Source: Telluribacter roseus (GTDB taxonomy: Bacteria; Bacteroidota; Bacteroidia; Cytophagales; Spirosomataceae). From it: DNA of 64,000 bases. This document shows positions 2,917-60,075 of this stretch, one piece after another. Position numbers and translations under genes: made by a program. The notes beneath the pieces are model-generated. The model did not search any database, was not told where the DNA came from, and was given only the letters and a program-made list of their open reading frames with translations. The stretch lies in NCBI RefSeq assembly GCF_017355915.2, contig NZ_JAFEUV020000010.1:62001-126000 (forward strand), in the 5' to 3' direction. Positions within the stretch are counted from its first letter, which is position 1, and every line of letters begins with the position of its first letter.

Positions 2917-2948
2917 CGGCAAATCATATTTCTAGTTATACTGAGTAC

Positions 2949-4755: not shown

Positions 4756-4776
4756 AATGTACCATTCAAACAGCAA

Positions 4777-4813: not shown

Positions 4814-4836
4814 CATATCTAAATTAATAAAGTACC

Positions 4837-5622: not shown

Positions 5623-5661
5623 GGTTAGCGGTTTAATGTAGTAAGCTGTTTAGTTATAAGT

Positions 5662-6759: not shown

Positions 6760-6783
6760 AGGGTAAGGATTGATTGGGTGAGA

Positions 6784-30202: not shown

Positions 30203-31552
30203 ATGAATCAACCAACCGTATTCCAACAGGAAGCCATCTGTGCCCTGGCTACCCCTTCCGGAGTGGGAGCCATCGCTGTGATCCGGGTATCCGGACAGGG
30301 CGCTATCGATATTGTTAATAGTATATTTAAAGGCAAAGATCTCAGCCAGGCCGAGAGCCATACGGTACACTTCGGTACTATCCGCGACGGTGCCACACTA
30401 GTGGATGAAGTACTGGTGACGGTATTCCGAACGCCCCGCTCCTTTACCCGGGAAGACGCCATTGAAATCTCCTGCCACGGATCTGACTACATCATCCGGC
30501 AAATCATCAAGCTCCTCGTCAAACAGGGCGCCCGCATAGCCCGTCCGGGCGAGTTTACGCAGCGGGCCTTCCTCAATGGTCAGTTTGATCTGGTACAGGC
30601 CGAAGCCGTTGCCGACCTCATCGCCGCTGATTCCGAAACCAGCCACCGCACGGCACTCAACCAGCTGCGCGGGGGATTCTCGAAAAAGCTGGCGTCGCTG
30701 CGCGAAGAGTTGATCCACTTCGCTTCCCTGGTCGAACTGGAACTTGACTTCGGGGAAGAGGACGTAGAGTTTGCCCAGCGCGACGACCTGCGCAATCTGA
30801 TCCACTCCCTGCAGCGCACCATAGCTCCGCTCATTGAATCCTTTGACTACGGTAATGCCATCAAGGATGGCGTACCGGTGGCGATCATTGGTTCACCCAA
30901 TGTAGGTAAGTCTACCCTGCTCAACGCCCTGCTCAACGAAGAGAAGGCCATCGTGACCAGCATAGCCGGTACTACCCGCGACGTCATCGAAGATACCATG
31001 GTACTGAACGGCCTCAAATTCCGCTTCATCGACACCGCCGGTATCCGCGAAACGCAGGACCTGGTAGAGTCGATGGGGATCGAGCGCTCGCGTAAGGCCA
31101 TGGAGAAGGCGGACATCGTACTGCTCTTATTCGACAGCCCCGAAACCTTTGCTGATATACAGGTGCTGGCGGAGAGCTTACCTGCTGACAAAAGGGTACT
31201 GTGGGTGCAGAATAAGGTAGATGTGTCTGAGCTCCGACTCATGGATGATGCACTCCCCATCTCGGCCCAGACCCAGCAAGGACTCGAGGTACTTAAAGAA
31301 ACCATCGTGGCTCAGGTACAAAAGCAGGCGGCCTCAGATACAGTAGTAACGAACCTACGGCACTACGAGCACCTACTTAAGACGCAGGCTGCCCTCGATG
31401 ATGTACTGAATGGATTGGATATGGGTATCACTGGAGACTTCCTGGCGCAGGACATCCGCCTGGCCCTGCACCACCTCGGAGAGATCACAGGCACCATCGT
31501 GAATGACGACCTGTTAGCGAATATATTCTCGAAGTTTTGTATTGGAAAGTAA
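30203..31552 (+). CDS. mnmE: tRNA uridine-5-carboxymethylaminomethyl(34) synthesis GTPase MnmE
   Basis: A 449-residue GTPase that with MnmG modifies the wobble uridine of certain tRNAs. The N-terminal formyl-THF-binding domain starts EAICALATPSGVGAIAVIRVSG. The G domain sits at about 215-380, with G1 GSPNVGKSTLLN, G2/G3 GTTRDVIED...DTAGIRET and G4 QNKVD. The C-terminus is the universally conserved FCIGK, with the catalytic Cys. The last six codons (TTT TGT ATT GGA AAG TAA) double as the attachment site of the genomic island that begins here; the gene itself is intact. Confidence 0.97.
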   Translation: MNQPTVFQQEAICALATPSGVGAIAVIRVSGQGAIDIVNSIFKGKDLSQAESHTVHFGTIRDGATLVDEVLVTVFRTPRSFTREDAIEISCHGSDYIIRQIIKLLVKQGARIARPGEFTQRAFLNGQFDLVQAEAVADLIAADSETSHRTALNQLRGGFSKKLASLREELIHFASLVELELDFGEEDVEFAQRDDLRNLIHSLQRTIAPLIESFDYGNAIKDGVPVAIIGSPNVGKSTLLNALLNEEKAIVTSIAGTTRDVIEDTMVLNGLKFRFIDTAGIRETQDLVESMGIERSRKAMEKADIVLLLFDSPETFADIQVLAESLPADKRVLWVQNKVDVSELRLMDDALPISAQTQQGLEVLKETIVAQVQKQAASDTVVTNLRHYEHLLKTQAALDDVLNGLDMGITGDFLAQDIRLALHHLGEITGTIVNDDLLANIFSKFCIGK

Positions 31553-32384: not shown

Positions 32385-33509
32385 ATGACAAAGGTTAAGC
32401 TAAGGAAGAAGTCAATGACAGACAACAGGCATAGTCTGTACCTGGACTACTATCCGCCAATTCCTAATGAAGAAACAGGAAAACCTACCCGGCGGGAGTT
32501 CTTAAAGCTCTTTATATACGACAAGCCAAAGAATCCATTTGAGAAGGAGCATAACAAAAATACAATGGCACTGGCTGAGGCCATTAAGGGGCAAAGGCAG
32601 TCTTCAATCCAGAACCAGAATTATGGATTTATCAGCAATCCTTCAGAAAAGGGAGACTTTGTAGAATATTTCAGACAGTTAGCCGCAAAGCGCAAAGGAC
32701 CTAACTCTGACAACTGGCAGTCTTCGCTCAAATACCTGGTAGCTTTTACGGGTGGAAAATTACCGTTCAAGGATTTAACATTAAAAATGTGTGATGACTT
32801 TCGGGAGTACCTGCAATCATCACCAACCAACCGTAGCAGCAAGAAAACGCTGGCCCAAAACTCCGCCCACTCCTATTTCAATAAGTTCAAAGCTGCCCTG
32901 AAACAAGCCTATAAAGAAGGGCATCTAAAAACAGATTTGAATGGTAGGGTGGACGGGATCAAGCAGGCCGAAACCAACCGGCAGTTCCTGACGCTCGAAG
33001 AACTGAACAAGTTGGCAAATACAGATTGTGAATTACCTCAACTAAAACAGGCAGCTCTTTTTTCAGCTCTAACAGGACTCAGGTATTCAGATATTGAAAA
33101 GCTGTTATGGAGTGAGATCCAGTACAGCCAGGAGAGCGGGTTTTCAATCCGCTTCAGGCAAAAGAAAACAAAAGGAATGGAGGTTTTACCCATTTCAGAG
33201 CAGGCAGTTTCGCTATTGGGAGAACGAGGTGAGCCTGAGAAAAGGATCTTCAGTGGATTGGTATATTCAGCTTGGACAAATCTAAAACTCAGAGAGTGGA
33301 TTCTGGATTCCGGAATAAAAAAGAAGGGAATCACCTTTCACTCGTTCCGCCATACCTATGCTACCTTACAACTTGAACTGGGTACCGACATTTACACGCT
33401 TTCAAAGATGCTAGGACATCGGGACTTGAAGACGACCCAGATTTACGCAAAGATTGTAGATAAAACCAAACAGCAGGCAGCAAACCGTATAAAGATTGAT
33501 TTTATATAA
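32385..33509 (+). CDS. Tyrosine site-specific integrase
   Basis: A 374-residue phage-type integrase with a SAM-like core-binding domain at about 95-200 and a catalytic domain after it. The catalytic set is visible: Arg233 in TGLRYSDIEKL, a likely Lys near 260, His319 and Arg322 in HSFRHTYATL, His345 in LGHRDL, and the nucleophile Tyr354 in TTQIYAKI. All are present, so it should be active. It sits 0.8 kb from attL and presumably recombines the mnmE-end site. Confidence 0.95.
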   Translation: MTKVKLRKKSMTDNRHSLYLDYYPPIPNEETGKPTRREFLKLFIYDKPKNPFEKEHNKNTMALAEAIKGQRQSSIQNQNYGFISNPSEKGDFVEYFRQLAAKRKGPNSDNWQSSLKYLVAFTGGKLPFKDLTLKMCDDFREYLQSSPTNRSSKKTLAQNSAHSYFNKFKAALKQAYKEGHLKTDLNGRVDGIKQAETNRQFLTLEELNKLANTDCELPQLKQAALFSALTGLRYSDIEKLLWSEIQYSQESGFSIRFRQKKTKGMEVLPISEQAVSLLGERGEPEKRIFSGLVYSAWTNLKLREWILDSGIKKKGITFHSFRHTYATLQLELGTDIYTLSKMLGHRDLKTTQIYAKIVDKTKQQAANRIKIDFI

Positions 33510-41882: not shown

Positions 41883-43784
41883 ATGAACAAACAGGAACTA
41901 ATAGAAGCCCTCAAACAACAGGAGGGACTTACTCAGGACCAGAAAGCATACCTCATCAACCTGGTCAATACCAAGAAAAAATATGGCCTCATGTGGGAAG
42001 ACAAGCCCGAAGACGTCGAAGAATTCCTCCGCCAGCACCTGCCCGTGCTGAGCGAAGTAGTAGAGCGGCGTATATTGGCATCACCCCAATCAAACCCACT
42101 CCCCACACCTCGGCCACTCTTTACTTCCATAACAGCCAAACAAGGAACCATTAGCTTTACCGACGCTACGGAGGAAGAAGCAGAAGAACCTGGCAATCCG
42201 AGCGAAGGAGAAGCCCCCGGTACAGGCGAAGCCAAACCCGCCCCCGACCATATCCTCATCGAAGGTGACAACCTCCACGCCCTCACAGCCCTGACGTTTA
42301 CGCACGAAGGCCTCGTAGACGTGATTTACATAGACCCTCCCTACAATACCGGCAACAAGGATTTTAAATACAATGACCGCTTCATAGATCACGAAGACAC
42401 CTATCGCCATTCCAAGTGGCTGAGCTTTATGCAAAAGAGGCTGCTAATCGCCAAACGGCTGCTGTCCAGTATGGGCGTAATCTTCATCTCCATTGACGAT
42501 AATGAACAGGCGCAGTTGAAGCTCCTATGTGATGAGGTGTTTGGGGAGGAGAATTTTATAGATTGTATAATTTGGCAGAAGAATTTTGCACCTAGGAGTT
42601 CTGCCAAATTCTTCTCTTCAAATCATGAATTTATACTTTGTTATACCAAGAATAAAAACTCCTTAAAATTAAATCTACTTCCACGGACTAGCACACAAAA
42701 TGATAGATATAAAAACCCGGATAATGATCCAAGAGGGATTTGGACTTCAGGTGATTTATCTGCAAGGAACTATTATAGTTTAGGGACTTATAAGATTGTT
42801 ACTCCAGGTGGAAGAGTGATTGATGGACCTCCAAAAGGAATGTATTGGCGAGTATCAGAAGAAAATTTTAAAAAATTAGTCGAAGAAAATAAAATCTGGT
42901 TTGGAAGTGATGGGAAGGGAGTTCCAAGACTAAAGAGATTTTTGTCCGATGTACAGGATGGAGTTCTACCCCAAACAATTTGGCTACATACGGAAGCAGG
43001 TAATACACAGGAAGCAAAGAAAGAAGTCTTAGAAGTCTTCGGGAATGATGAAGGTTTTTTTACAACACCTAAGCCATTAAAATTGCTAAACAGAATATTA
43101 AATATAGCTTCCAATAAAAATTCTATCATTTTAGACTTCTTCGCCGGCAGCGGTACCACCCTCCACGCCACCATGCAGCTAAACGCCGAGGATGGCGGTA
43201 TTAGACAGTGCATCCTGGTCACTAATAATGAAAATGGAATTGCCGAGGAAGTCTGCTACGAGCGCAACAAGCGCGTAATACAAGGCTACACCAATGCCAA
43301 AGGGCAGCAGGTACCGGGGCTTACCAACAACAGCCTGCGGTATTACCGCAGCGACATGGTACCCCGCCAAACTTCCCTGCCCGCCAAGCGCCTGCTAATG
43401 CAACGTGCCACCGAGCTGCTCTGCATTAAAGAGGGGCTGTACGAGGAGGTACCCTCCCTGAGCCTGGACGAGCAGATCCGTGGCTATGGCCGTATCGGCC
43501 GGTACCTGATCATCATCTACGACGACCTCTGCATAGACGAAGCCGTTCTACTAATCCGCCAGGCCGTGGAGGCAGAGCCCCAGGCACGGTTTAAGGTCTA
43601 CGTGTTCAGCAACGGGCAGTACCCCTACACCGAGGAATTTGAGGAGGTACTTCCGTACGTCACGCTCTGCGCCCTGCCCGACGCTATCTATAAAGCCTAC
43701 CGGCAGGTACTGCCCGACGAGCAAGCCCCGGCCCAAATTGTAGAAGAAGAAGCCGCCGAAACTACCCCCCTCACTTTGTTCTGA
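41883..43784 (+). CDS. Type III-like DNA methyltransferase (Mod), beta class
   Basis: About 633 residues from ATG 41883, which opens MNKQELIEALKQQEGLTQDQ; earlier in-frame sequence looks untranslated. Amino-methyltransferase motif IV is VIYIDPPYNTGN at about 148-158, preceding the SAM motif I DFFAGSGTT at 418-426, the order seen in Type III Mod proteins that make N6-methyladenine. The region between (about 220-417, the target-recognition domain) is strikingly AT-rich compared with both ends. A res gene follows after 9 bp. It probably protects the host site recognised by the cluster. Confidence 0.92.
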   Translation: MNKQELIEALKQQEGLTQDQKAYLINLVNTKKKYGLMWEDKPEDVEEFLRQHLPVLSEVVERRILASPQSNPLPTPRPLFTSITAKQGTISFTDATEEEAEEPGNPSEGEAPGTGEAKPAPDHILIEGDNLHALTALTFTHEGLVDVIYIDPPYNTGNKDFKYNDRFIDHEDTYRHSKWLSFMQKRLLIAKRLLSSMGVIFISIDDNEQAQLKLLCDEVFGEENFIDCIIWQKNFAPRSSAKFFSSNHEFILCYTKNKNSLKLNLLPRTSTQNDRYKNPDNDPRGIWTSGDLSARNYYSLGTYKIVTPGGRVIDGPPKGMYWRVSEENFKKLVEENKIWFGSDGKGVPRLKRFLSDVQDGVLPQTIWLHTEAGNTQEAKKEVLEVFGNDEGFFTTPKPLKLLNRILNIASNKNSIILDFFAGSGTTLHATMQLNAEDGGIRQCILVTNNENGIAEEVCYERNKRVIQGYTNAKGQQVPGLTNNSLRYYRSDMVPRQTSLPAKRLLMQRATELLCIKEGLYEEVPSLSLDEQIRGYGRIGRYLIIIYDDLCIDEAVLLIRQAVEAEPQARFKVYVFSNGQYPYTEEFEEVLPYVTLCALPDAIYKAYRQVLPDEQAPAQIVEEEAAETTPLTLF

Positions 43785-43793
43785 TTTACTGCC

Positions 43794-46094
43794 ATGATCC
43801 ATCTTAAACCCTACCAGGAAGAAGCTGTCAATACTCTCACCTTTAATACCTTCAAGCTACTCAAACGCCCCGGTGCGCGGCAACCTCTGGTGTTCAAGGC
43901 TCCCACCGGCGCGGGCAAGACCATCATGATTGCGGCCTTCCTGAACAAATTCTGCGAAGAACTCCCCGACCACCTCGACCTTGAAAAACGACAGGCGGCC
44001 TTTATCTGGATAGCCCCCAATAAGCTGTATATTCAAAGCTACCGCGCCCTAAAAAGCTACTTCGCCGAACTGCGCTCGTTGCGGCCCGTTTTCTTCGACG
44101 ACATCAGCGGCGACGCCCTCCAGCCCAACGACGTCCTGTTTGTAAACTGGGAGAGCATCAATAAGGAAAAAAACCTGATGGTAAAGGACAACGAGCATGG
44201 CCGTACCCTCTACAACTACGTCAATCAGGCCCGCCTCCACGAAACCGAGATCATCGTCATCATTGACGAAGAGCACATGTTTGCCAACACGCTCACGGCC
44301 AAACGCGCCACTGAGGTTCTTCAGGGGATTTACCCCAAACTCGAAATCCGGGTATCGGCCACGCCCACCACGCCCAGTGACTACAAGGTAATCGTAGAGC
44401 GCCACGACGTTATCCAGGACGAGATGATCAAAGAGGGCATTATCCTAAATCCCGCCCTGGATCAGTACCTGCAAACGGGCGGCAAATCACTGGAACAAAT
44501 ACTGATGGACATCGCCCTTGAAAAACGGGAAGAAATCAGGCAGGCCTACCAGAAACTCGGCCTAAGTATTAACCCTCTGCTGCTCATTCAGCTCCCTAAC
44601 GACACCAGTGAATCCGAAACTGTCGAGGACAAAAAGTACATCGACACAGTGATTCACTATCTCGAGAGCAAAGACATCTCCACCAGCAACCACAAACTAG
44701 CCGTGTGGCTGTCAGGGAAGAAAGACAATCTCGACGGCATCGAAGCCCCTGACAACATGGTGGAGGTACTGCTATTCAAGCAGGCCATTGCCCTGGGCTG
44801 GGACTGCCCCCGGGCCGCCGTGCTGGTGATCTTCCGTGAGTTGCACAGTACTACTTTCACCATTCAAACAGTAGGCCGAATTTTGCGAATGCCCGAGCAA
44901 AAGCACTACCCCGATGCCCTGCTCAATCAGGGATACGTGTTCACCAACCTCAGCAAAGACCGCATTGTGATTGTACAGGACGACATGAGTTACATCAGCA
45001 TGGACCGGGCCGTACGCAAGCCCGACTACCGGCCCGTCCTGCTCGAATCGAGCTTCATCAACACCCGCATTGACCGTAATCGTCTGGGCTCCAAGTTTCG
45101 ACTGGCCTTGTATCAGACTGCCGAAGCTCTCTGGGGTGTTCACCGAGACCTGAGTAGAAGCGACTATACCGACGAAAGCCGTCAAAAGCTGACTGAAAAG
45201 CTCATCGAACTGGACGTGAGCCGCATTGACATCGTTATACCTGAGAACGTGCATCTGAGTGGAGGTGTCGAAGTGATTCGAGTGGACGAAACAGTACGTT
45301 TTGCCAAAACAGAAGGAGAACTGATGATCCTTTTCCGGCAGTTTTGCCGCGACAATGTGGGAGGTTACGCGCCCGTAGACTCTACACCCGTGCTGGAAAT
45401 GGCCCTCAAACTTTTTTTTGAGGAGTACCTGGCCATGAGTGAATTTGAAGCCGTGAAGGTGGTGCTGTATGAACAAAATAAACCTTCCTTCATCGAGCTG
45501 ATTGCGCGGGCTCTCGAAGCCTACGAGCAATTGCTGCAACAACAGGCCAACAAAGCTAAGAAAGATGTTGCCCACTACGCCTGGGAGGTACCCTCCGAGC
45601 GTATTTATAACGATACCTACGAAGCCAATCCCAAGGAATGCCACGTATTGGAACCCTACTTTCAGTTAAAGAGAGCCTCCAAACCAGAAGTACTTTTCTC
45701 TGATTTTCTGGTACAGCACAAAGCACACATAGCCTGGTGGTACAAAAACGGTGACAATGGCAAGGAACATTTCGCTGTACCCTATACGGATGCCCGCGGA
45801 ACCCTGAGGCTTTTTTACGTGGATTTTGTGATCCTGACCAAATCAGGCATTACCTGCCTGTTTGATACCAAAACGGCGGGCAGCGACCCAGCAGCGGCCC
45901 ACCTCAAACACAATGCCTTGGTAGACTACATCGCCCAGCGCAACCAGCAAGGCAAGCCTACCATCGGTGGAGTATTGATTGGCAACGAGACGGGAGGCAC
46001 CACGACTTGGCGGTATTGTACCAACAAAATTGAAAATACCCACGACCTCACCGGCTGGGACTATTTTAATCCAGCCCTCGTGCAGGCTTACTGA
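43794..46094 (+). CDS. Type III-like restriction helicase-nuclease (Res)
   Basis: A 766-residue superfamily 2 helicase. Walker A is FKAPTGAGKTIMI at 35-47, the DEAD-box-like motif is IIDEEHMF near 158, motif III is RVSATPTTPSD near 190, and motif VI is QTVGRILRMPEQ near 365. The C-terminus has a PD-(D/E)xK-type nuclease with Asp677 and the Asp691-Thr-Lys693 pair. It is shorter than classical Res proteins of 900-1000 residues. It starts 9 bp after mod and translocates or cleaves unmodified DNA, by family analogy. Confidence 0.9.
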   Translation: MIHLKPYQEEAVNTLTFNTFKLLKRPGARQPLVFKAPTGAGKTIMIAAFLNKFCEELPDHLDLEKRQAAFIWIAPNKLYIQSYRALKSYFAELRSLRPVFFDDISGDALQPNDVLFVNWESINKEKNLMVKDNEHGRTLYNYVNQARLHETEIIVIIDEEHMFANTLTAKRATEVLQGIYPKLEIRVSATPTTPSDYKVIVERHDVIQDEMIKEGIILNPALDQYLQTGGKSLEQILMDIALEKREEIRQAYQKLGLSINPLLLIQLPNDTSESETVEDKKYIDTVIHYLESKDISTSNHKLAVWLSGKKDNLDGIEAPDNMVEVLLFKQAIALGWDCPRAAVLVIFRELHSTTFTIQTVGRILRMPEQKHYPDALLNQGYVFTNLSKDRIVIVQDDMSYISMDRAVRKPDYRPVLLESSFINTRIDRNRLGSKFRLALYQTAEALWGVHRDLSRSDYTDESRQKLTEKLIELDVSRIDIVIPENVHLSGGVEVIRVDETVRFAKTEGELMILFRQFCRDNVGGYAPVDSTPVLEMALKLFFEEYLAMSEFEAVKVVLYEQNKPSFIELIARALEAYEQLLQQQANKAKKDVAHYAWEVPSERIYNDTYEANPKECHVLEPYFQLKRASKPEVLFSDFLVQHKAHIAWWYKNGDNGKEHFAVPYTDARGTLRLFYVDFVILTKSGITCLFDTKTAGSDPAAAHLKHNALVDYIAQRNQQGKPTIGGVLIGNETGGTTTWRYCTNKIENTHDLTGWDYFNPALVQAY

Positions 46095-46129
46095 TTTTCA
46101 CATACTATATCCTAAACACTCCCTCACCA

Positions 46130-46348
46130 ATGGCCAAGAAAGGACTAGATACAACTTTCATCCACTACGGCATCCGAAAGGGCGACATGAGCCTGATCGA
46201 GACCCTATCCACCCAGCACCAGTTGGAATACGATTGGGTCCGGGAAGATTTATTGAAAGAATTCCATGAAAAGAGGATCAGCAACCAGGATCTGAACGAG
46301 AAAGCTATTGAACGGCTCATCGAAAAAGCTCTCCTCAAAATCAAGTAG
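46130..46348 (+). CDS. Small conserved-looking protein of the restriction cluster
   Basis: A 72-residue, highly charged, helical protein (MAKKGLDTTFIHYGIRKGDM start), 36 bp after res and 3 bp before the DndD-like gene. I recognise no family. Its tight position in the operon suggests a subunit or adaptor of the ATPase that follows. No membrane span or signal is present. Confidence 0.7.
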   Translation: MAKKGLDTTFIHYGIRKGDMSLIETLSTQHQLEYDWVREDLLKEFHEKRISNQDLNEKAIERLIEKALLKIK

Positions 46349-46351
46349 CCC

Positions 46352-48349
46352 ATGCTCATCAAAAGAATCAAAGCCCGAAACTTCAAGACCTATCTTGAAC
46401 TGGACCTGGACCTGTCCGTAGAGCCTGATAAGCCTATTATATTGATAGGTGGAAAAAATGGTGGTGGTAAAACTACCCTCTTTGAAGCCATTTATGGCGC
46501 CTTGTACGGCCTTAAAATCAACAGCCCAAGACAGTTTCATGAATTATTAAATGCAGGTGCTCTTGGCCGGGAGGAAGCGAAGATTGTACTTGAACTTCAT
46601 TTTACAGGTAAGGTACTCAACCAGGACCAGCAGTACGTCCTGACCCGCACCTATGCACTCAATGCATCTCAGCATCCGGTAGAAAGTGTCCGGCTCAATA
46701 TGAACGGTACCATCTTCCTTTATGGCTCTGCTACTCCATCCGCCCAGCGTGCCGAACAGGAAGCCCAGGTTAACAAGATCATCAAAGCCAACCTCCCACA
46801 AGAACTGAGCCGTTACTTCCTCTTTGACGCCATGGAGGCAGGTAACCTGCTCAAAGAAGATCATCTCAACCGGGTCATTAAAGAGAACATCGAAAATGTG
46901 ATGGGCTTTAACAAGTACCTTCAGTTAGCCAGGGGAGCTGAAAGCCTGCATCAGGTATATACTGCGCAACGACTGCAGGTCGAAAATGAAAAACAGGAGT
47001 ACCTGCAGCTCTTGGAACAGAAAAAGAAATTTGAATCGACCCTTAGTACTTTACAGCAACAGTTACAGGATGCACTTCAATATTCAGTAGCTAACAAAGA
47101 ACTCTATGATGGCCTAAAAAATGGACTCAGCCAGGAAACTACCATCAAAAATAAGATGGAGCAAACCAAAGTGCAGATAGAGAATATCTTAAAAAAGGAG
47201 TCCCAATATAGAAGTGACCTAGACAGCTTCGTAAAAGATATCGAGTTGGATGTTTGTCTTCCTAAGCTGCGTGAGGCAGTAAAGTCCGAAGTACAGCTAG
47301 TTCTAAAAGCCCGGCAGGAACAACAGCAGAATAGTTTTATTACTATGCAACCCGAGCAGGTAGAAGCTATCAGTTACACCATCCTCGAATACCTCCGGCA
47401 GCGCAAGTTGGTCTTACAGGATATAAAGCTTGATGAGGTAATAGATCACGTATTAGCCTCGACTCATACTCCCCCTCAGTCCGACCCCTATGATTTTCTG
47501 GAATTCTCAGAAGTGAAAGCGCTAGAGAACTTAGTGAATACCAAAAACAATAACCCCTTCCCTATTCTCAATCAGCAACAAGTTGAGCTGACTCTGGCAT
47601 TGAGCCAAAATCAGATGCTAGAAGTTCAGTTGGAACAGATGAAAGAACAGATAGCTGGTCGGGACTATACCTTACTGAAATCGTATGAGGAAAATGAAGC
47701 CAGCCTCAGGAAATTGGAAGGGCAGATACTCGAAGTGAAGAGTGAAATTACTAAAATTGATAAAAGGCTACACCAATTTGATATCCAAACTACTCAGGAG
47801 CCTGACCCCAAGTATGAAGCATTAGGCAGATTGAAAGGCTTTTTTGAAGATGTAGCTGATAAACTGCTTAGGTCTAAAAAGCAAGAGATTGAGGTGCGTA
47901 TGAAGCAGGACCTCAACATCAACCTGGCTGCGTATAAAGATGTAATAGACAGGGTAGAATTATCTGAAAACTTAGCCAACTTAACCTTTAAAATATTCCA
48001 TAAAGCTGGTAACGAAATTTACCTCAATCAGCTTAATACAGCCTCCAAGCAGGTGGTGGTCCAAGTACTTCTGAAAGCCCTTCATGAGTTTGGTGACTAT
48101 GATCCTCCTGTGATGATTGATACTGTCATGGGAGTTCTGGATGAAACCAGTCGCTCCACAGTTTTAGAAAATTATTTTCCAGAGTTATCTGATCAGACCA
48201 TCCTGTTCAGTTCTGACAGTGAAATAAGACCTGGCTCCGATTTAACTAAGATAGAATCCTTCGTATCAAAAGCCTATACTCTGGAACGTGACAGGGAGCA
48301 GCAGCTTACACGGGTAGTTGATGGCTATTTCGGAAACTCAGTTAATTAA
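46352..48349 (+). CDS. DndD-like SMC/Rad50-type ATPase
   Basis: A 665-residue ABC/SMC ATPase. Walker A is IGGKNGGGKTTLFEAI at 32-47, followed by long coiled-coil arms (about 190-500). The C-terminal Walker B/D-loop is VMIDTVMGVLDETSR near 587-601, followed by NYFPELSDQTILFSSDSEI. That last block closely follows the DndD pattern (DTPLGRLD then YFP..S.Q...LS.D.E). The ABC signature is degenerate (NTASKQ in place of LSAGEKQ). DndD family members support phosphorothioate DNA modification or act in SMC-type defence, but no dndA, dndB or dndC is nearby. Confidence 0.86.
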   Translation: MLIKRIKARNFKTYLELDLDLSVEPDKPIILIGGKNGGGKTTLFEAIYGALYGLKINSPRQFHELLNAGALGREEAKIVLELHFTGKVLNQDQQYVLTRTYALNASQHPVESVRLNMNGTIFLYGSATPSAQRAEQEAQVNKIIKANLPQELSRYFLFDAMEAGNLLKEDHLNRVIKENIENVMGFNKYLQLARGAESLHQVYTAQRLQVENEKQEYLQLLEQKKKFESTLSTLQQQLQDALQYSVANKELYDGLKNGLSQETTIKNKMEQTKVQIENILKKESQYRSDLDSFVKDIELDVCLPKLREAVKSEVQLVLKARQEQQQNSFITMQPEQVEAISYTILEYLRQRKLVLQDIKLDEVIDHVLASTHTPPQSDPYDFLEFSEVKALENLVNTKNNNPFPILNQQQVELTLALSQNQMLEVQLEQMKEQIAGRDYTLLKSYEENEASLRKLEGQILEVKSEITKIDKRLHQFDIQTTQEPDPKYEALGRLKGFFEDVADKLLRSKKQEIEVRMKQDLNINLAAYKDVIDRVELSENLANLTFKIFHKAGNEIYLNQLNTASKQVVVQVLLKALHEFGDYDPPVMIDTVMGVLDETSRSTVLENYFPELSDQTILFSSDSEIRPGSDLTKIESFVSKAYTLERDREQQLTRVVDGYFGNSVN

Positions 48350-48356
48350 TAAAACA

Positions 48357-49949
48357 ATGAGCGTTATAAACCTGCAAAATATCCGTCAATCTGAGGGCTT
48401 GCTGGACCACCTACACACTTGTAAGGTAAAGATAGAACAACGTGTCAATCTGGACAGGTACAGTCAAGGACAAAAGTCAGTTTCAATCAGTGGAAACAAA
48501 ATCATGCGTATCTGTTTATTGGCAGGTCTTTCCAGTAAAGAAACACGGGAGCTGGAAAGTATAGAACAGATTCCGCTTTCCAAAAACAGTCAGCGCATCT
48601 TTGAAACCCTATTCACCTTGCACAACCTGAGCACTATGTACTCCGCCCTGCTCAAACTTCGGTACCACGGACTGCAGGTAGACTGGGAAAACGCAGTACT
48701 TAAAAGCAAGATTATTAACGCTGAAATTCTACGTGGCAGTAAACTACTTCAGCAAGACAGCATACTTGATGACTGGCTGCTCAATACCAATAGCCAAACA
48801 GGAGGCAGGGCGGGCGCCATTCCTATACTTGACTTGAACATAGGAACCTATGAAGACGAAATACCGGCAACTTTAAATCTGAATGGTAAAGAAATTTCTA
48901 ATACACAGATACTAATTGCTGGTACCACCGGCTCAGGTAAGTCCAATTTATTGGCAGTATTGATTAACGAGATTCGTAGCCTCTCTATTGATAGTCCCTA
49001 CCCAGTCAACTTTCTGTTGTTTGATTATAAAGGTGAGTTTTCCGATCCCGCTAACAACAGTTGGTTACAGCTCTTTGAAACTGACAAAAGTGCCATCCTA
49101 GACCCAATTGTTGCTCCGCTCCCATTCTCACCCTTCAAAGACTTCACTGGACGTACACAGAATGAAATTAACCTATACTCTACTGAGCTAGCAAATGCAT
49201 TATGCGCCATTGATAATGCTCGTATCAGCGCTAATATGAGCAACCGCTTATCTGAGGCTATTATCAATGCTTACAAGCAAACCAATAATAGCCCCGTCAA
49301 CTTTTCTGGTATTTTAAAGGAATATACTGCATTACAGCCAGACAAAGAAAAAGACCGTGACGACAGTGTAAAGTCAGTACTGAAACAACTTATACGCAAC
49401 AACCTCTTCACCGACGATGACAGGATAGATCTGATTAAGGATAGCTACATCATAAAGATGGACTCATTCCCCAAAGATGGTCCAGTAGCCAAAGCCATTG
49501 TATATTTCATCGTATCAAAGCTAACACTTATTTACGAGCGGCTCCCCAAACAGGCAGTAGACGATACCAGCGTAGAACTCCGACACTTCACCATCATTGA
49601 TGAGGCACACTACATGCTAGGGTTTGACAACAAACCCCTCCGCGACCTCATCGCTGTTGGCCGTAACAAAGGCTTGTCTATCATCCTGGCAACCCAGAAC
49701 ATGGATAGCTACAAAAGCGAATACTTTGACTTCTACGCCAACGCCCAGTACCCCCTCATCATGAAGCAACAGTCTATCAATGACGGAGTCATAAAGGATC
49801 TCTTTGGTGTATCTGGCAAGGAATTCCAGGAAATCAAAGAAGCCATAGCAGGTTTACAAAAAGGTGAGCTTATACTGAAAAACTCTACGGCGATTGTCCT
49901 AGGCATGGGTAAGAAGTATAAGAAGATAAAGGTTAGACACTTAATCTGA
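48357..49949 (+). CDS. DndE-like domain fused to HerA/FtsK-type ATPase
   Basis: About 530 residues from ATG 48357; an upstream ATG at 48318 overlaps the previous gene. The first 130 residues resemble DndE: SISGNKIMRICLLAGLS, then a helix ending AEILRGSKLL. Residues about 180-530 are a HerA/DUF87 translocase with Walker A LIAGTTGSGKSNLL (187-200), Walker B FTIIDEAHYML and an arginine-finger region near IILATQNMDS. Separate DndE and HerA-like proteins occur in phosphorothioation systems; their fusion here beside a Type III-like pair is unusual. It is the last gene of the block, 60 bp before the Septu-like pair. Confidence 0.8.
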   Translation: MSVINLQNIRQSEGLLDHLHTCKVKIEQRVNLDRYSQGQKSVSISGNKIMRICLLAGLSSKETRELESIEQIPLSKNSQRIFETLFTLHNLSTMYSALLKLRYHGLQVDWENAVLKSKIINAEILRGSKLLQQDSILDDWLLNTNSQTGGRAGAIPILDLNIGTYEDEIPATLNLNGKEISNTQILIAGTTGSGKSNLLAVLINEIRSLSIDSPYPVNFLLFDYKGEFSDPANNSWLQLFETDKSAILDPIVAPLPFSPFKDFTGRTQNEINLYSTELANALCAIDNARISANMSNRLSEAIINAYKQTNNSPVNFSGILKEYTALQPDKEKDRDDSVKSVLKQLIRNNLFTDDDRIDLIKDSYIIKMDSFPKDGPVAKAIVYFIVSKLTLIYERLPKQAVDDTSVELRHFTIIDEAHYMLGFDNKPLRDLIAVGRNKGLSIILATQNMDSYKSEYFDFYANAQYPLIMKQQSINDGVIKDLFGVSGKEFQEIKEAIAGLQKGELILKNSTAIVLGMGKKYKKIKVRHLI

Positions 49950-50009: not shown

Positions 50010-51857
50010 ATGGAAATTCATTATATCTGGATAAAAGACTTTGGCTACCTACAAAAAGCTGAAATAAATTTATCTGCTAGGTTTATCTTCAAACTTACTC
50101 CAACCTCAGAAAGCGAGGAAATGTACAACCTTCAAATCACAAGAAATGAGGATTTTACAGAAAATTTTTTTGAAGAAGATAATATTCAAAATGTAACTGC
50201 AATAATTGGAAAAAATGGATCAGGCAAAAGCAGTATACTGAATTATTTAAAAACCTATTTACCAGACGGGTCTTATGATGAAATAAAAAACGACATAATA
50301 GTTTTTTCAACGATAATCTCTGATCAAGAATACTATATTGTCGCATATCCTATGCATATGAAATTAACGTTAGATAGCAATATAAGCCATTTTGAAGCTA
50401 GACCTTATGAATCTTTCAAAGAAATCAATAATAATTATTTAGACAAGAATCCACAAGAGGACATTTCATATATATACTACTCTTACTTCTTGGAAAAGAA
50501 TCCCATTTTAAAGTACAACTCAGAAGGTTTAGTAGATTTATCAACAAGCAGGCTGTTAATTGAAAAAAGCGAAAATCAATTAATTTCACCAAATGAAGAA
50601 ACTACTAAAGAAAACTTACATGTAACAGCCTCTGACTTAGATTATTATGTAACATCTGAAACTGCAAGAGCCGTTCAACTATTAGCCTCAAAAAACAAAA
50701 TTCACATTCCTTTTAAAAGCCCAGAGAAACTTTTTATAAAAATTGACCTAACTGATTACTTTTTTTTATTCAATAAAAATAAAGACGAGGATGTTACAGA
50801 ATTTATAGAAAATATTAGAAAACTGAACACAACATCAGAACCCAAAGAAAGACTAATAAACAATTTACTCCTATCACTAGTCTGTAATTTTTTTGTAACT
50901 GATCTAAATTTTAACATAAATATTAAATTTAAATATAACTTATCTATAGGAAAGATAAAATTGGTAAAATCAATAACAGAGCATTTCTTTAAAAACTTGC
51001 CAACAGAATACAACTTCAATGGAACACCAGTTAGCTATACTAGAAATGCGACACTATCAAAGCTTATACCAAAATTTATTGAACATATTGAAGAACTGAT
51101 AAAAAAAGGAACAATAACTGTACATACTGAAGAGTATTTTTCTTTTAATATAGAAGAAGAAATAAATAATGACTTTGAAATATTCATAAACTTATACTTA
51201 CAAATAATGGGTATAACATCCTTTTTAGAATTTAACTGGCGGACACTTAGTACTGGAGAACAATCTTTTTTATCCTTTATAGCAAGGTTTCATAACCTAT
51301 TACATCATTCAAATAAAAAACTAAAAGATAATGTTATGATATTGATTGACGAAGGAGATGCTGGCTTTCACCCTGAATGGCAAAGATCTTTTTTTCAAAA
51401 CACAATTACTTTTCTATCAAAGCTATTCCAGGACCGTAAGATTCAATTAATTTTTACAGCGAATACACCGTTTTTAACATCAGATCTACCTAAACACCAT
51501 CTAATTTTTATCGAAAAAAAAGGCAAAGGAAAATCAATAATACATAGCAAAGAAAACAACAGAAAGAAAACATTCGGTGCCAACATACATTCGCTCCTAT
51601 CAGACAGCTTCTATATGGATGGAGCTTTAATTGGAGAGTTTGCAAAGCGCAAAATTGATAAAATAATACTTTTTTTAAAGAACCCTGGTAATCGAGAACC
51701 TGATAGCAAATACAAGAAGGTTATAGAGCAGATAGGAGAACCTATTATACGAAATAAGTTACTAGATATGTGGAATATAAAATTTGGTGTGGACGAAGAA
51801 ATAGAACAACTAGAGAGAAGAATAAACGAACTAAGGTTAAAAAAGAAATCAAAATGA
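50010..51857 (+). CDS. Septu-like PtuA ATPase (RecF/OLD-type)
   Basis: A 615-residue ABC-type ATPase. Walker A is AIIGKNGSGKSSIL at 64-77. The ABC signature region is RTLSTGEQSFLSF near 412 and Walker B is VMILIDEGDAGFHPEWQ near 447, followed by LIFTANTPFLTSDL. A C-terminal FGANIHSLLSDSFYM stretch follows. The gene overlaps the HNH gene by four bases (ATGA), the arrangement of the two-gene Septu defence system. It is very AT-rich, unlike mod/res. Alternatively it could be another AAA/HNH pair not assigned to Septu. Confidence 0.82.
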   Translation: MEIHYIWIKDFGYLQKAEINLSARFIFKLTPTSESEEMYNLQITRNEDFTENFFEEDNIQNVTAIIGKNGSGKSSILNYLKTYLPDGSYDEIKNDIIVFSTIISDQEYYIVAYPMHMKLTLDSNISHFEARPYESFKEINNNYLDKNPQEDISYIYYSYFLEKNPILKYNSEGLVDLSTSRLLIEKSENQLISPNEETTKENLHVTASDLDYYVTSETARAVQLLASKNKIHIPFKSPEKLFIKIDLTDYFFLFNKNKDEDVTEFIENIRKLNTTSEPKERLINNLLLSLVCNFFVTDLNFNINIKFKYNLSIGKIKLVKSITEHFFKNLPTEYNFNGTPVSYTRNATLSKLIPKFIEHIEELIKKGTITVHTEEYFSFNIEEEINNDFEIFINLYLQIMGITSFLEFNWRTLSTGEQSFLSFIARFHNLLHHSNKKLKDNVMILIDEGDAGFHPEWQRSFFQNTITFLSKLFQDRKIQLIFTANTPFLTSDLPKHHLIFIEKKGKGKSIIHSKENNRKKTFGANIHSLLSDSFYMDGALIGEFAKRKIDKIILFLKNPGNREPDSKYKKVIEQIGEPIIRNKLLDMWNIKFGVDEEIEQLERRINELRLKKKSK

Positions 51858-52849
51858 TTAGAGCTCCCTTTTCTCTAACAGAGCTTGATAACCTAGCTCA
51901 AAGCTTCTATGATGACCTCATTACCGAATTAGACACAAAAAACAGAATCACCAATAGGCAAGAGGACATTCTAAGTCCCCTCTTTGACTACCTTCTGATT
52001 AATTTTGAGGAAATAATTAAAGGTCGTCCCTCAACATTAGAGGGACATATTCCGAATATCAATACTCTATCACGCACAGCAAAATACCTTTACAGCAATA
52101 GTATTACTCCACCTTATCCTCCAAAGGAAGTAAAAAAATGGTTTAACAAGAATATACTAGAAATATTTGATTACGACAGGAGTAGTCGTTCATTTACAAA
52201 GTTGAGAAGGGGTGAACTTGCATATAAACATGCATCAAGGCTTGGCTTAACTACATGCTTATATTGTAATGCGCAGTTTACTTTTACTATAAATAAGAAT
52301 ATTAAAACTCGCCCTCACTTTGATCATTTCCTTAATAAGTCGTCTCATCCATATTTTGCCTTATCCTTCTACAACTTAATACCTGCCTGTTATGTTTGTA
52401 ACTCTAACATCAAAGGAAGCAACACATATTCTATTGCAACCCATCTGCATCCATTCATTGATTGTCTTGAAGGTTTATATAATTTCAAAACTCATATCAA
52501 TTCAGTAGACTTTTTAGTTAATAATACAGAATTCAATATAATACTAGAACCTTGTAAAAACGCAAGTGTCCATGATTTGACTAGAGCCAATAATAGTATT
52601 AGAGATTTTGGCATCAAAGAACGATACTTCTTTCATAAAGATTATGTAGAAGATATTATTCGCAAATCACATGTATATTCAGAAAGTAAGGTAGAAGAGC
52701 TATACACTAACTATAATTCTATATTTAATTCAAAAGAAGAAGTTATTGAATTCGTCCTCGGAAATTATATTCATGCTGACATGTTACATAAACGAATCCT
52801 ATCAAAGCTCACAAAGGACATTGCTGATGAATTAAGAATAATTTATTAA
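51854..52849 (+). CDS. Septu-like PtuB HNH endonuclease
   Basis: About 331 residues from the ATG at 51854, which shares ATGA with the ATPase stop; the longer in-frame start at 51770 lies inside the ATPase gene. The HNH site is visible: zinc pair Cys135/Cys138 (CLYC), the catalytic HFDH at 155-158, Asn174, and Cys179/Cys182 with ACYVCNSN. N-terminal residues 1-110 have no known domain. By family analogy the ATPase senses infection and the nuclease cuts DNA or RNA. The pair is AT-rich and was probably acquired as a unit. Confidence 0.82.
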   Translation: MIRAPFSLTELDNLAQSFYDDLITELDTKNRITNRQEDILSPLFDYLLINFEEIIKGRPSTLEGHIPNINTLSRTAKYLYSNSITPPYPPKEVKKWFNKNILEIFDYDRSSRSFTKLRRGELAYKHASRLGLTTCLYCNAQFTFTINKNIKTRPHFDHFLNKSSHPYFALSFYNLIPACYVCNSNIKGSNTYSIATHLHPFIDCLEGLYNFKTHINSVDFLVNNTEFNIILEPCKNASVHDLTRANNSIRDFGIKERYFFHKDYVEDIIRKSHVYSESKVEELYTNYNSIFNSKEEVIEFVLGNYIHADMLHKRILSKLTKDIADELRIIY

Positions 52850-53521: not shown

Positions 53522-55816
53522 ATGGCTGAAGAATCCTTCTACTCCTGGCTCCCAACCTACCGAGAGATAAATAAGAAACTTCATACTTATCCACTCGCGG
53601 AGCTGGTTCCTATTGTAAGGCAACTGGAAATAGAGAATGGGCTAACCGATCGTGATGCGGAGAAAGATTTTAATTCTTTTGAAGTGGCTGAGATAGATCC
53701 CTTTACTTTTTTATCCTTAGTCAACAAGTATGGTGATAGAAAACGTGTGGAGCTTTTGCAGAAGCTCCACAACCTCTGGAATCTGCAGGTATCTATCCCT
53801 ACTGATGTCCATGGCCTACCAACGGCCAATGCTCAAAATGCGTGGTGGTTTGGCTACCAGTACCGTAGAAAGCCAAATGATATAAAGGATCTGCGGACTC
53901 TATTTATCCAGACTCTGAATGGGAAAATAACAGAAGAGGCCTTTCAGAAGGTACTTAACATCCGCGGCGTTGGTTATGCTAAACTCACTGAAGGGTTGTT
54001 TTATGTTGATCCAGAAAAGTATTTACCAATAAATGGACAGACAGAACCTTACCTTAAAAAAAGGGGCATTCGTAATAGCTTTAAAACGCTTGAGGACTAC
54101 CGTCTAATACTTCAACAGGTACGTGACAAGATCCAGAAACCCTTCTACGAGATTTCTCACGAGGCCTACAAGGAAAATAAAAAAATAGCCTACTGGATCT
54201 TTCAAGGGAATCCTGACATTTACAATATAAAGGACGCACTGAGAGATGAACATCTGAAAACTTGGCGGATTACAGCATACGCACATAAGATAAAGCTTAA
54301 TGATAAAGTAATTCTGTGGGTCACGGGTAATCAAGGAGGGTGCTATGCTTTGGCTGAGGTAGCGTCAGATGTTTATGAGGGAGCGGAAGAAGAAATAGAA
54401 AAGTCTTATTACTCAGACATAAATAGTAGTGTGTTTGGCAAAAGAGTAGCTATAACAGTTACAAAAAACCTTATAGAAAGCCCAATTGTAAGAGATCAAG
54501 TCAAAAACAATCCAGCGTTTGATAAATTCATGGGTGGTAAACAGGGGACAAACTTCAAAGCTACTCAGGAGCAATATGAACTATTTGAGCAATTAATTGC
54601 TGAGAAAGAAAGTTCTTCCGCACTAATGAAGCAGACAGTAAAATACTCTAAAAATATCATATTATACGGCCCTCCGGGTACCGGTAAAACCTATGCGACC
54701 ATTGACCTGGCCGTTGAAATAGTGGATGGTGTAAGCAACTCTAATCACCGGCAGAATAAACAGCGATTCGACGAGCTTCTGGATGATCAGATAGAATTCA
54801 TCACCTTCCATCAGAACTACACCTACGAGGATTTCGTCATAGGTATAAAGCCTGATTTGGACGATGAAGGTACAGGTTTGCAATTCCGTAGGCACGAAGG
54901 CATCTTTTATAAAATAGCTAAACGAGCTCAGCAGAACTATGAGGTTAGTAAGGTAAGTGGTGCCACAACAGGTCTTCGTCCTTTTGATGAGGTTTTAAAT
55001 GAGCTAATTCAACCCTTGGTCGAGAAGGGGAAAGCAGTAGCGATACCTATGCCGTCTGGCATAGAATTCAAGTTGGATCGTTTTTCGGCAGCCAGAGTAC
55101 ATATTGCTAAAGCGAGGGGTAGCACGGATCACTGGCTCAGTTTTGAAACTATGAAGCTTCTATACGAAGAGATAATTCCAATGCCAACTGGGGGCATGAA
55201 GACTTACTATAAACCTATTATCGAACTGTTACAGCAAAACGGAAAAATTAAGGTAAGCGCAACCCCTAAAAAAAATTATGTACTTATCATAGACGAGATC
55301 AACCGGGCCAACATGTCACGCGTGTTCGGAGAGCTAATTACGCTATTGGAAGAAGACAAGCGCATGGGCGGTGAGAACGAGATCCGGTTGCTCCTTCCTT
55401 CGGGTGAGCGTTTTGCGCTTCCCCCTAACCTGTACATATTAGGTACTATGAATACCGCCGATAAATCTCTTGCTCTGCTGGATGTCGCTCTTCGTCGCCG
55501 CTTCGAATTCATAGGTAAATACCCACAGTATGAGGTAGCGGGGCTTGACCAGGATGTAGCTTCTATACTTATTAAGCTGAACGAAGCCATCCACAAACAG
55601 AAACAGTCCGCTGATTTTCTTATTGGGCATGCTTACTTTATTGGCAAAAGAAATGGGCAGCTGAAAGAGGTTTTTCAAAACCGAGTCATTCCATTACTGA
55701 TGGAATACTTTAATGGTCGCACCGACCTGGTAGCTAATCTGTTAGAACAGGCTAATATCAGGACCAAACGAAATAATGCAACCTACCAGTTGGAAATTGA
55801 AGATGACGAGTTATAG
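53522..55816 (+). CDS. mcrB: McrB-type GTPase with EVE-like N-terminal domain
   Basis: A 764-residue GTP-dependent restriction motor. The N-terminal part (about 1-230) has an unrecognised helical domain. About 240-330 is an EVE/YTH-like modified-base reader (HLKTWRITAYAHKIKLNDKVI, then WVTGNQGGCYALAEVAS). The AAA+ motor has Walker A LYGPPGTGKTYATI near 381, Walker B VLIIDEINRANMSRV near 588 and the McrB-specific MNTADKSLALLDVALRRRF near 643. It would detect modified cytosine or other modified bases and drive McrC cleavage. It overlaps mcrC by 14 bp. Confidence 0.93.
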   Translation: MAEESFYSWLPTYREINKKLHTYPLAELVPIVRQLEIENGLTDRDAEKDFNSFEVAEIDPFTFLSLVNKYGDRKRVELLQKLHNLWNLQVSIPTDVHGLPTANAQNAWWFGYQYRRKPNDIKDLRTLFIQTLNGKITEEAFQKVLNIRGVGYAKLTEGLFYVDPEKYLPINGQTEPYLKKRGIRNSFKTLEDYRLILQQVRDKIQKPFYEISHEAYKENKKIAYWIFQGNPDIYNIKDALRDEHLKTWRITAYAHKIKLNDKVILWVTGNQGGCYALAEVASDVYEGAEEEIEKSYYSDINSSVFGKRVAITVTKNLIESPIVRDQVKNNPAFDKFMGGKQGTNFKATQEQYELFEQLIAEKESSSALMKQTVKYSKNIILYGPPGTGKTYATIDLAVEIVDGVSNSNHRQNKQRFDELLDDQIEFITFHQNYTYEDFVIGIKPDLDDEGTGLQFRRHEGIFYKIAKRAQQNYEVSKVSGATTGLRPFDEVLNELIQPLVEKGKAVAIPMPSGIEFKLDRFSAARVHIAKARGSTDHWLSFETMKLLYEEIIPMPTGGMKTYYKPIIELLQQNGKIKVSATPKKNYVLIIDEINRANMSRVFGELITLLEEDKRMGGENEIRLLLPSGERFALPPNLYILGTMNTADKSLALLDVALRRRFEFIGKYPQYEVAGLDQDVASILIKLNEAIHKQKQSADFLIGHAYFIGKRNGQLKEVFQNRVIPLLMEYFNGRTDLVANLLEQANIRTKRNNATYQLEIEDDEL

Positions 55817-57140
55817 GTTGATTGAACACAAGTCGGCCCAGCAGACTTTGCCCCACGATTTTGATGTAGATGGGCTTAAAAGGTACCTGGATGAGGTGTG
55901 GCAAAGTAGGTTGATATTTGACGAAGAGCCAGAAGAAGGCCGCTCTCAGCGCCAACCCTTCCTAAGCTTTGAGTACGCAGGCAAAGGACAGGGACCTCGC
56001 CTAAGAGCGGGTAAGTACATTGGCTTTATCCAATATGAGGGTGTTACCATTGAAATCCTCCCAAAACTGTTCACGGAGCACCAGGGTGAGGTGGCTTTTC
56101 GTCACCTGCTTTGGTGGCTATCTTACTGTAAGAGTATCCGCTTCCCCTTTTCCAGTCTTATCAGCGATTCTGAACGTATTGATGACTTTCCAGAGGCACT
56201 TATCGGATATTTCGCCCGATATACCTTTGCCTTAGTAAACAGTCAACCTTACCAGCACTACACGGAAACGACAGAGACACATTATTACCTGCGCGGACGA
56301 TTAAATACACAGCAATACATTAACAAGAGCCTGAGTAGAGGGAATTGGCACGAACTGGTATGCGATCATGAGCCTTTTATGTACAACAACCGGCTCAACC
56401 AGATCATCAAGTACGTAACCCAAAAACTGACTCACCTTTGCCGTTTGCCCGAAACCTACAAATGGCTGGAAAAGGTACTGTTTACGCTGGATGAGGTAAG
56501 CGATGTTCCAGTTACCGTACGGGACTGCGATAGTATTCAGTTGAACCGCTTCTACCACGAATACGAAGTGTGCCTGGACCTGTGTCGCTTTTTTCTGTCA
56601 GACCACTACCTCAACCGGCAGCAGGCCAACCAGCGGCACTTCTGCTTCCTTTTGCCGATGGATTATGTATTTGAGGATTTCGTAACAGGGGTAACACAGC
56701 AGTTTTTTAGTAGGGACTTTAAGGTTCAGTCACAGGCTAAAGGGTGGCTGACTGATCAGAGAGTATTTCAGATCCGTAATGATCTTCTGCTGACCCACAA
56801 AGAGACGAAAAAAAAGCTAATAGTGGATACAAAGTACAAGATTCGGACAGAGGGTAGTATAGACGCGAAACATGGGGTAAGCCAGACAGACCTCTACCAG
56901 ATGGTTAGCTATGCTTTGCGCAGGGAAACGGACCAGGTACTACTGCTATATCCCTGTCGATACGGCGAAGCCCCTGTCGTCCCAGCTAACTTCACTGTAA
57001 GTTCTGGTCTACTCAACACACTACCCCTATATTTCGATGCGGTAAACATAGAAGTTACGGGGCCTAGTCGTGAAGAGATGGTCCAGCAAGTGGTTAAGCA
57101 GCTTAGAGAATGGCTAATATCTATGGGTCTAGCTATATAG
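55803..57140 (+). CDS. mcrC: McrC-type nuclease subunit
   Basis: About 445 residues from ATG 55803; an alternative start at 55776 lies deeper in mcrB. The N-terminal half has the McrC/DUF2357 scaffold that contacts McrB (YIGFIQYEGVTIEILPKLF). The C-terminal PD-(D/E)xK nuclease is visible as VFQIRNDLLLTH...LIVDTKYKI near residue 330-350 with the Asp and Asp-Thr-Lys pair. It cuts modified DNA when McrB translocates. The overlap with mcrB supports stoichiometric co-expression. Confidence 0.93.
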   Translation: MTSYRLIEHKSAQQTLPHDFDVDGLKRYLDEVWQSRLIFDEEPEEGRSQRQPFLSFEYAGKGQGPRLRAGKYIGFIQYEGVTIEILPKLFTEHQGEVAFRHLLWWLSYCKSIRFPFSSLISDSERIDDFPEALIGYFARYTFALVNSQPYQHYTETTETHYYLRGRLNTQQYINKSLSRGNWHELVCDHEPFMYNNRLNQIIKYVTQKLTHLCRLPETYKWLEKVLFTLDEVSDVPVTVRDCDSIQLNRFYHEYEVCLDLCRFFLSDHYLNRQQANQRHFCFLLPMDYVFEDFVTGVTQQFFSRDFKVQSQAKGWLTDQRVFQIRNDLLLTHKETKKKLIVDTKYKIRTEGSIDAKHGVSQTDLYQMVSYALRRETDQVLLLYPCRYGEAPVVPANFTVSSGLLNTLPLYFDAVNIEVTGPSREEMVQQVVKQLREWLISMGLAI

Positions 57141-60056: not shown

Positions 60057-60075
60057 TTCTGTATTGGAAAGTAAC
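60057..60075 (+). repeat. attR: second copy of mnmE 3' end
   Basis: TTCTGTATTGGAAAGTAAC would encode Phe-Cys-Ile-Gly-Lys-stop, the exact end of MnmE, but no mnmE reading frame precedes it. Its TTC Phe codon is synonymous with the TTT in attL. That is expected if this side came from an element picked up from another host allele. Confidence 0.9.

Follow-up and report, generated by a model that had tools for sequence, protein, structure and literature searches.

Do the subunits of a type III restriction-modification (R-M) system act together with Dnd-like ATPases encoded directly downstream, or do the two sets of genes only share a neighbourhood? This question is raised by a five-gene operon of Telluribacter roseus, located in a stretch of 64,000 nucleotides (contig NZ_JAFEUV020000010.1, positions 62,001 to 126,000) that is called the window below. 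The operon encodes a methylase (Mod), a restriction subunit (Res), a small protein (SP), a DndD-like ATPase and a HerA translocase whose N-terminus is probably DndE-like. Judging from these sequences, it appears to be a new variant of type III restriction into which a DNA-capture module is built. A function in defence is likely, and our favoured explanation, to which we assign a probability of about 0.57, is that the R-M pair and the SP-DndD-DndE-like/HerA module form one anti-invader machine. The genes are as follows (aa, amino acids).

41883-43784, + strand: Mod, 633 aa from an ATG start (the entry in the list of open reading frames opens at an upstream TTG, 41814)
43794-46094, + strand: Res, 766 aa, a short type III restriction subunit
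46130-46348, + strand: SP, small protein of 72 aa, Pfam Sp-DndD family
46352-48349, + strand: DndD-like ABC/SMC-type ATPase with a coiled-coil insert, 665 aa
48357-49949, + strand: HerA, one fused protein with a probable DndE-like N-terminus (~1-140) and a HerA/FtsK translocase of DndH type (~156-530)

The operon is real. All five genes that the initial annotation had placed on one strand (Mod, Res, a 72-residue protein, DndD-like and DndE-like/HerA) were found on the + strand, and the measured intergenic gaps of 9, 35, 3 and 7 base pairs (bp), in the order from Mod to HerA, are close to the 3-36 bp given there. An in-frame ATG at 48321 is an alternative start of HerA that would run into dndD. 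The reading frames of all five genes are open, and nucleotide-binding or catalytic motifs are present in Mod, Res, DndD and HerA. The domain content described earlier was likewise recovered: PF01555 and the PADLOC type III methyltransferase (MTase) in Mod, ResIII in Res, AAA_23 and PADLOC DndD in the ATPase, and DUF87 and PADLOC DndH in HerA. In PADLOC, each part goes by a name of its own (type III MTase, type III restriction endonuclease, DndD/PbeC, DndH), except SP, which has none; loci of this kind may therefore well be recorded as ordinary type III R-M with 'DndD' pieces beside it. The promoter and terminator scan of the operon gave no more sites than were found in shuffled sequences.

Recurrence of the five-gene order

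Genome contigs were scanned with a HerA alignment, which yielded 190 relatives; the counts rest on the best 80 of them (at least 57% identity). All five genes stand in order at 59 of the 80 loci by automated count, and at 61 when L035 and L075, in which SP is also present, are added. The complete set is found in order in 55 of the 57 loci whose contig extends 7 kb or more upstream of HerA, and in 6 of the 23 with less. Since 55 of these 57 loci keep the order, the set is not a product of chance. In seventeen of the 19 remaining loci, the contig ends within 7 kb upstream of HerA; L066 retains only a DndD fragment, and L087 contains SP-DndD-HerA without Mod-Res. The initial annotation had suggested a search for the same order in other genomes, and its outcome is strongly positive, mostly in Bacteroidota. 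The 59 loci span 12 named families and 18 named genera and belong to Bacteroidota (54), Ignavibacteriota (2), Pseudomonadota (1) and Verrucomicrobiota (1), with one unlabelled; the Pseudomonadota and Verrucomicrobiota loci are single contigs of metagenome-assembled genomes and are possibly mis-binned.

The median gaps in the five-gene loci (n = 59) are 5, 10, 5 and 3 bp. All four gaps are at most 100 bp in 31 of the 59; the interval between Mod and Res is longer in 17 loci and that between Res and SP in 14, and most of these intervals contain genes of other kinds. Such extra genes were seen in L014, L016, L020, L022, L027, L028, L044-L047, L050, L061, L070, L076, L077 and L091 among others, and one family of ~297-302 aa, judged by eye, recurs in seven loci at both positions. 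Res or DndD is split or shortened in five of the 59 (L027, L028, L047, L076, L093), and Mod is shorter than 500 aa in six, mostly at contig ends.

A protein search scored 7994 candidates, 1390 of them at E ≤0.001. Few names occur among the 120 matches listed, namely DUF87, hypothetical protein and general ATPase names. No relatives were detected in viral contigs, and a viral origin was rejected for this reason. Matches to six plasmid records are all partial (none covers 80%) and show 22-24% identity. The host genome contains no second full-length HerA/DndE copy; two weak partial matches overlap on contig C3.

Neither Mod-Res nor SP-DndD-HerA is confined to the company of the other. Of 395 genomes of the class, seven contain the Sp-DndD family, the host counted, and in four of the seven (host, G222, G226, G389) Res lies directly upstream. 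The other three have SP-DndD-HerA without Mod-Res (G260), after a gene of 734 aa (G247) and after DndC (G087). Res relatives were found in 58 of 395 genomes of the phylum and are full-length in only five, the host and four genomes with only Mod-Res in the retrieved DNA. In the Res tree, the five-gene sequences form a single clade (58 rows, support 0.977) apart from the four stand-alone Mod-Res relatives. Seven residues that are conserved in at least 95% of the five-gene Res occur in none of the four stand-alone ones, and six of the seven are located in the nuclease half (617-746).

As for other partners, L012 (4750-10798) and L141 (3984-10086) contain DndD and DndE-HerA after a gene of 734-738 aa that matches no PADLOC model and is neither DndC nor Mod-Res. 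Its product appears, from the gene order, to be a third partner type for the DndD/DndE-HerA core. In L087 (3-11560), a close SP-DndD-HerA relative is preceded by genes of 1100, 729, 212 and 536 aa in place of Mod-Res.

The proteins and their known relatives

Type III restriction consists in ATP-dependent cleavage between two inversely repeated unmethylated sites, and the enzymes are generally viewed as two-subunit machines. Mod of the window is a type III DNA methylase (beta-class amino-methyltransferase, N6/N4), with DPPY from residue 151, FFAGSGT from residue 419 and, between them, a hypervariable target-recognition region (TRD, ~231-395; conservation ~0.31-0.37 across 241-400). This is the layout of a type III Mod, i.e., DPPY followed by FxGxGT with an internal TRD, and the motifs are invariant in all 53 five-gene Mods (window counted). 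Significant matches were obtained with Pfam N6_N4_Mtase PF01555 (160.7 bits), with PADLOC MTase_III (4.7e-114) and, among solved structures, with the type III Mod 6k0w (E 9.7e-70) and EcoP15I Mod 4zcf_A (2e-43). The window Mod also has an acidic stretch at ~81-120 that is mostly missing in its relatives (conservation 0.07).

Res combines a superfamily 2 (SF2) motor (~1-400) with a C-terminal PD-(D/E)XK nuclease (~615-745; D677, D691-x-K693) and adjoins mod, as is characteristic of a type III Res. The Pfam match is ResIII PF04851 (56.5 bits). The best Foldseek match of its AlphaFold2 model (predicted local distance difference test 83.4) is EcoP15I Res 4zcf_C (E 1.7e-12). The motor and nuclease residues examined are invariant in 58 of 58 five-gene Res (window counted) and in all four stand-alone ones.

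SP matches Pfam PF20306 (Sp-DndD) with 32.8 bits against a cut-off of 27.2, and the motif KGxDxxFxHYGhR is conserved in an alignment of 28 members. Comparison with solved structures gave nothing convincing (best E 0.092), and the PADLOC PbeB model matches one of 28 SPs, weakly (E 0.012). The DndD-like ATPase scores best with PADLOC DndD (8.3e-56; PbeC 5.4e-48), a model matched by all 17 relatives scanned; its score with TIGR03185, 177 bits, is under the cut-off of 245.85.

The ATPase domain of HerA most resembles the C-terminal domain of DndH (7es4), and only the C-terminal 190-345 positions of the DndH profiles (1389-1715 positions) are matched. The N-terminus is probably DndE-like, as suggested by its structural model and a profile comparison. 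In the model, a short strand is followed by helices 15-30 and 46-59, a further short strand, helices 84-90 and 92-102, a long helix 113-131 and helix 134-142. This order agrees with the two ribbon-helix-helix units of DndE as described in section 13 of PMC10853773. The family profile of HerA residues 1-150 shows a weak match with the DndE profile (P 0.034 for the local and 0.0037 for the global alignment; one of 200 column shuffles scored as high), in which window 'LLAGLS...LF...MYSALLKLRY...GSKLL' is aligned over DndE 'YTYSLS...LF...MYLGLLCVHY...GLKLL'. Pfam and PADLOC scans list no DndE at the N-terminus of the window HerA, and Pfam DndE PF08870 has no match anywhere in the host genome; PADLOC DndE does match the DndE-HerA fusion of L138 (2.3e-7). 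The Foldseek and VIA lists for the whole HerA model are filled by ATPase-domain matches. The earlier label 'DndE-like' is supported by the predicted fold order and the weak profile match, and not by the Pfam family.

Which known system is closest? The initial annotation had noted that DndA, B and C are missing; for DndC and DndB, the models TIGR03183 (DndC) and TIGR03233 (DndB) match nothing in the host genome (E 0.01). Phosphorothioation via a DndC encoded elsewhere in the genome was rejected because TIGR03183 has no match there. DndC was not detected in the retrieved DNA of any of the 59 five-gene loci (tblastn, five DndC queries; the positive control was detected).

According to section 16 of PMC10853773, PbeABCD has the order SF2 enzyme, small protein, ABC ATPase and DndE, and cytosine methylases accompany some of the CxC systems. 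The self mark of PbeABCD is phosphorothioation, and viral replication is stopped without visible cleavage, as stated in PMC6459918 and PMC10853773. PbeA is described as an HKD nuclease (PMC10853773) and as lacking PD-X-D/EXK (PMC6459918). The window operon resembles PbeABCD/CxC in the order of an SF2 enzyme with nuclease, a small protein, a coiled-coil ABC ATPase and a probable DndE-like part, and in that some of those loci have DNA methylases. Unlike them, it has a type III Res with PD-(D/E)XK, a DndE-like part fused to HerA and a type III amino-methyltransferase. Its ATPase, for which DndD is the best score, lacks the CxC zinc-hook motif; among 58 DndD sequences (55 five-gene, window, L011 and L087), CxC was found in two and CxxC in none. 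The Pfam hits of Res include no HKD (PLD-type) family, the C-terminus showing the PD-(D/E)XK pattern, and the PADLOC PbeA models give weak matches to 5 and 6 of 40 Res.

Some Dnd loci, according to section 22 of PMC10853773, encode a DndE-HerA fusion (clade-3 HerA) beside a DndD-related ATPase. We found this arrangement together with DndC, confirmed by PADLOC models (E ≤6e-117), in L013, L138, L139 and L142. These loci share with the window a DndD-related ATPase adjoining a DndE-HerA fusion, a probable one in the window, and the same PADLOC DndH matches, and L013 also has the SP family; whereas they contain DndC for phosphorothioation, the window has Mod-Res in place of DndC and DndB, and its HerA is ~20-25% identical to theirs. 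The motifs and folds of Mod and Res are those of EcoP15I-type R-M, but Res is short and divergent here and is accompanied by three additional conserved genes. The relation to DndFGH lies in the ATPase domain of HerA; the operon lacks DndF, DndG and the large N-terminal parts of DndH, and neither DndF nor DndG is among the listed hits of the 10 proteins scanned with PADLOC.

The resemblance to HMA that the initial annotation suggested did not hold. Hma, according to PMC8565338, comprises three genes for a helicase, an m5C methyltransferase and an ATPase. These functions recur here in a broad sense, but the operon has five genes and its Mod is of the PF01555 N6/N4 type, not m5C, and membership was rejected. 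No Hma model is among the PADLOC hits of Res, SP and HerA; for Mod and DndD, the best 25 of 43 and of 50 hits were listed. A literature search by title and the beginning of the abstract found no description of the five-gene set; Krishnan et al. 2020 may mention it.

Covariation of the parts and the role of the ATPases

The mirror-tree comparison, with 500 permutations, included 48 of 60 loci (window counted) in which all four long proteins were long enough. Distances of HerA correlate with those of DndD at 0.91, of Res at 0.60 and of Mod at 0.23, the permutation maxima being 0.14-0.15 (HerA-DndD 0.15, HerA-Res 0.14). The TRD shows no correlation with any other part (-0.01 to 0.11). The C-terminal part of Mod correlates with the Res motor at 0.75, and HerA with the C-terminal half of Res at 0.64. 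In partial correlations, HerA-Res given Mod is 0.51 and HerA-Mod (C-terminal) given Res is 0.02, an ordering kept in 500 of 500 subsamples. DndD and HerA covary with Res, and their link to Mod disappears when Res is accounted for; it is thus Res, i.e., the restriction side, that the ATPases probably serve.

The same can be followed in closely related pairs. HerA is at least 90% identical in 12 of 1128 pairs, two of which are identical or nearly identical operons. The other ten all show a TRD identity of 7-37%; L072/L079 and L072/L081 among them are not independent of each other, as they have one partner in common and their second rows are nearly identical. In eight of the ten, Res identity is 87-99%. 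The reverse case is L016/L042, in which the TRD is 94% identical and HerA, DndD and Res are 66%, 50% and 44% identical, respectively. These data suggest that the TRD, the address, gets exchanged and the engine mostly stays, with both the C-terminal part of Mod and the ATPase module travelling with Res. A DndE-like domain that reads the site of Mod should track the TRD; the correlation between the two is 0.06, so no such tracking is visible. The swaps yield a sharp claim, that the ATPases would serve Res and be blind to the target site of Mod. The earlier proposal that Dnd parts are re-used here with methylation as the self mark therefore stands in part: type III Mod and Res do share an operon with the ATPases, and methylation is likely the mark. 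It is not a simple re-use, because the ATPases covary with Res and not with the TRD.

In the machine that we favour, Mod would mark the host's own DNA by reading its target site via the TRD and methylating adenine (or N4-cytosine). DndD and the DndE-like domain may clamp or scan DNA without being tied to this site, and the HerA ring would pump it. Res, docked on the C-terminal part of Mod, would be delivered or licensed to translocate and to cleave unmethylated DNA through its PD-(D/E)XK domain, and SP, placed between Res and DndD, could serve as an adaptor or as a brake. The supports are derived from sequence, namely, gene order, catalytic motifs, fold predictions for Res and HerA, exchange of the TRD and covariation of DndD/HerA with Res; the separate clade of the five-gene Res, the residues peculiar to them, the gene order shared with PbeABCD (section 16 of PMC10853773) and the position of the operon on an integrase-bearing island beside other defence genes also speak for it. 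If this is true, the type III lineage with an SMC-like ATPase and a HerA translocase, found across the Bacteroidota, would show that DNA capture can drive restriction and that the DndD-DndE core is a general engine accepting different self marks. A bolder proposal, held tentatively and at somewhat less than even odds, is an ATP-dependent restriction class with plug-in addressing. Here, a swappable TRD would be combined with a sequence-blind DndD clamp, a DndE-like grip and a HerA pump handing DNA to a short Res, and the same clamp-grip-pump engine would serve phosphorothioation at some loci and type III methylation at others.

Several observations weigh against a single machine. L087 and L011 have SP-DndD-HerA without adjacent Mod-Res, and L063 (a short contig) has genes other than Res in the 2 kb that precede SP; the module therefore need not depend on Res. 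In two of the ten close-HerA pairs, Res was exchanged along with Mod (L070/L077, Res 51%; L088/L092, Res 43%), which indicates that the tie between Res and HerA is loose. The five-gene Mods form no clean clade, the stand-alone L125 nesting inside with a support of 0.288. The mirror-tree correlations are uncorrected for shared descent in one operon, TRD distances are possibly saturated, and the DndE assignment depends on a weak profile match. Furthermore, in PbeABCD, the closest layout, cleavage of viral DNA was not observed (PMC6459918), and the related DndD-DndE/HerA pairs adjoin DndC, a modification enzyme, which favours a role on the modification side.

There are two main alternatives. The module could scan the host genome and aid methylation by Mod, as DndD/DndE do with DndC in phosphorothioation; the pairs that follow DndC in L138, L139, L142 and L013 (L140 has a broken frame) agree with this. 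EcoP15I-type Mods, however, are not known to need helpers such as DndD/DndE for methylation, HerA-Mod covariation vanishes once Res is given, and the TRD is swapped without a change of the module, which makes a modification-side role rather improbable. Somewhat less improbable, but still unlikely, are two layers of defence, in which an ordinary type III Mod-Res is backed by a non-cutting SP-DndD-DndE/HerA that blocks replication of unmarked DNA if restriction fails. The behaviour of PbeABCD, the existence of each half without the other, the retention of HerA in the two pairs with exchanged Res and the Pfam hits of SP, DndD and HerA, which include no nuclease family, are in line with it, whereas the position of Res next to SP, the dedicated Res clade and the Res-HerA covariation suggest one complex. 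That an R-M system and a Dnd-like remnant were simply gathered in a defence island is very improbable: the window does contain such an island, with PDC-M62 and McrBC-like genes, and the two halves differ in GC content, but the order kept in nearly all loci with enough upstream sequence and the spread over 12 named families refute it as a general account. We thus retain one anti-invader machine as the preferred explanation.

The genomic island around the operon

The operon lies on a 28.5-kb island (31535-60074) with a GC content of 41.5%, compared with 51.8% to the left. On the left it is bounded by the 3' end of mnmE and on the right by a repeat of the final 18 bases of this gene (TTYTGTATTGGAAAGTAA) with one difference (31535-31552 and 60057-60074); no such repeat is expected in shuffled sequences. 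Within the operon, the GC content of dndD/herA (46352-49949) is 0.43 and that of mod/res (41883-46094) is 0.48-0.52, as if their recent histories differ. The following other genes were noted on the island.

32385-33509: tyrosine integrase, inside the island; excisionase-like genes also lie just inside
50010-52849, same strand as herA: PDC-M62A/M62B candidate defence pair (PtuA-like ATPase and HNH-like protein), starting 60 bp past herA, GC 0.29-0.32
53522-57140: EVE-domain McrB-like AAA protein and an overlapping McrC-family gene, likely a modification-dependent restriction pair

In L126 (reversed, 2453-6862), a stand-alone Mod-Res follows an MnmE-like gene, recognised by eye, with one reverse gene between them. 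This arrangement suggests that systems of this kind may repeatedly insert at the 3' end of mnmE.

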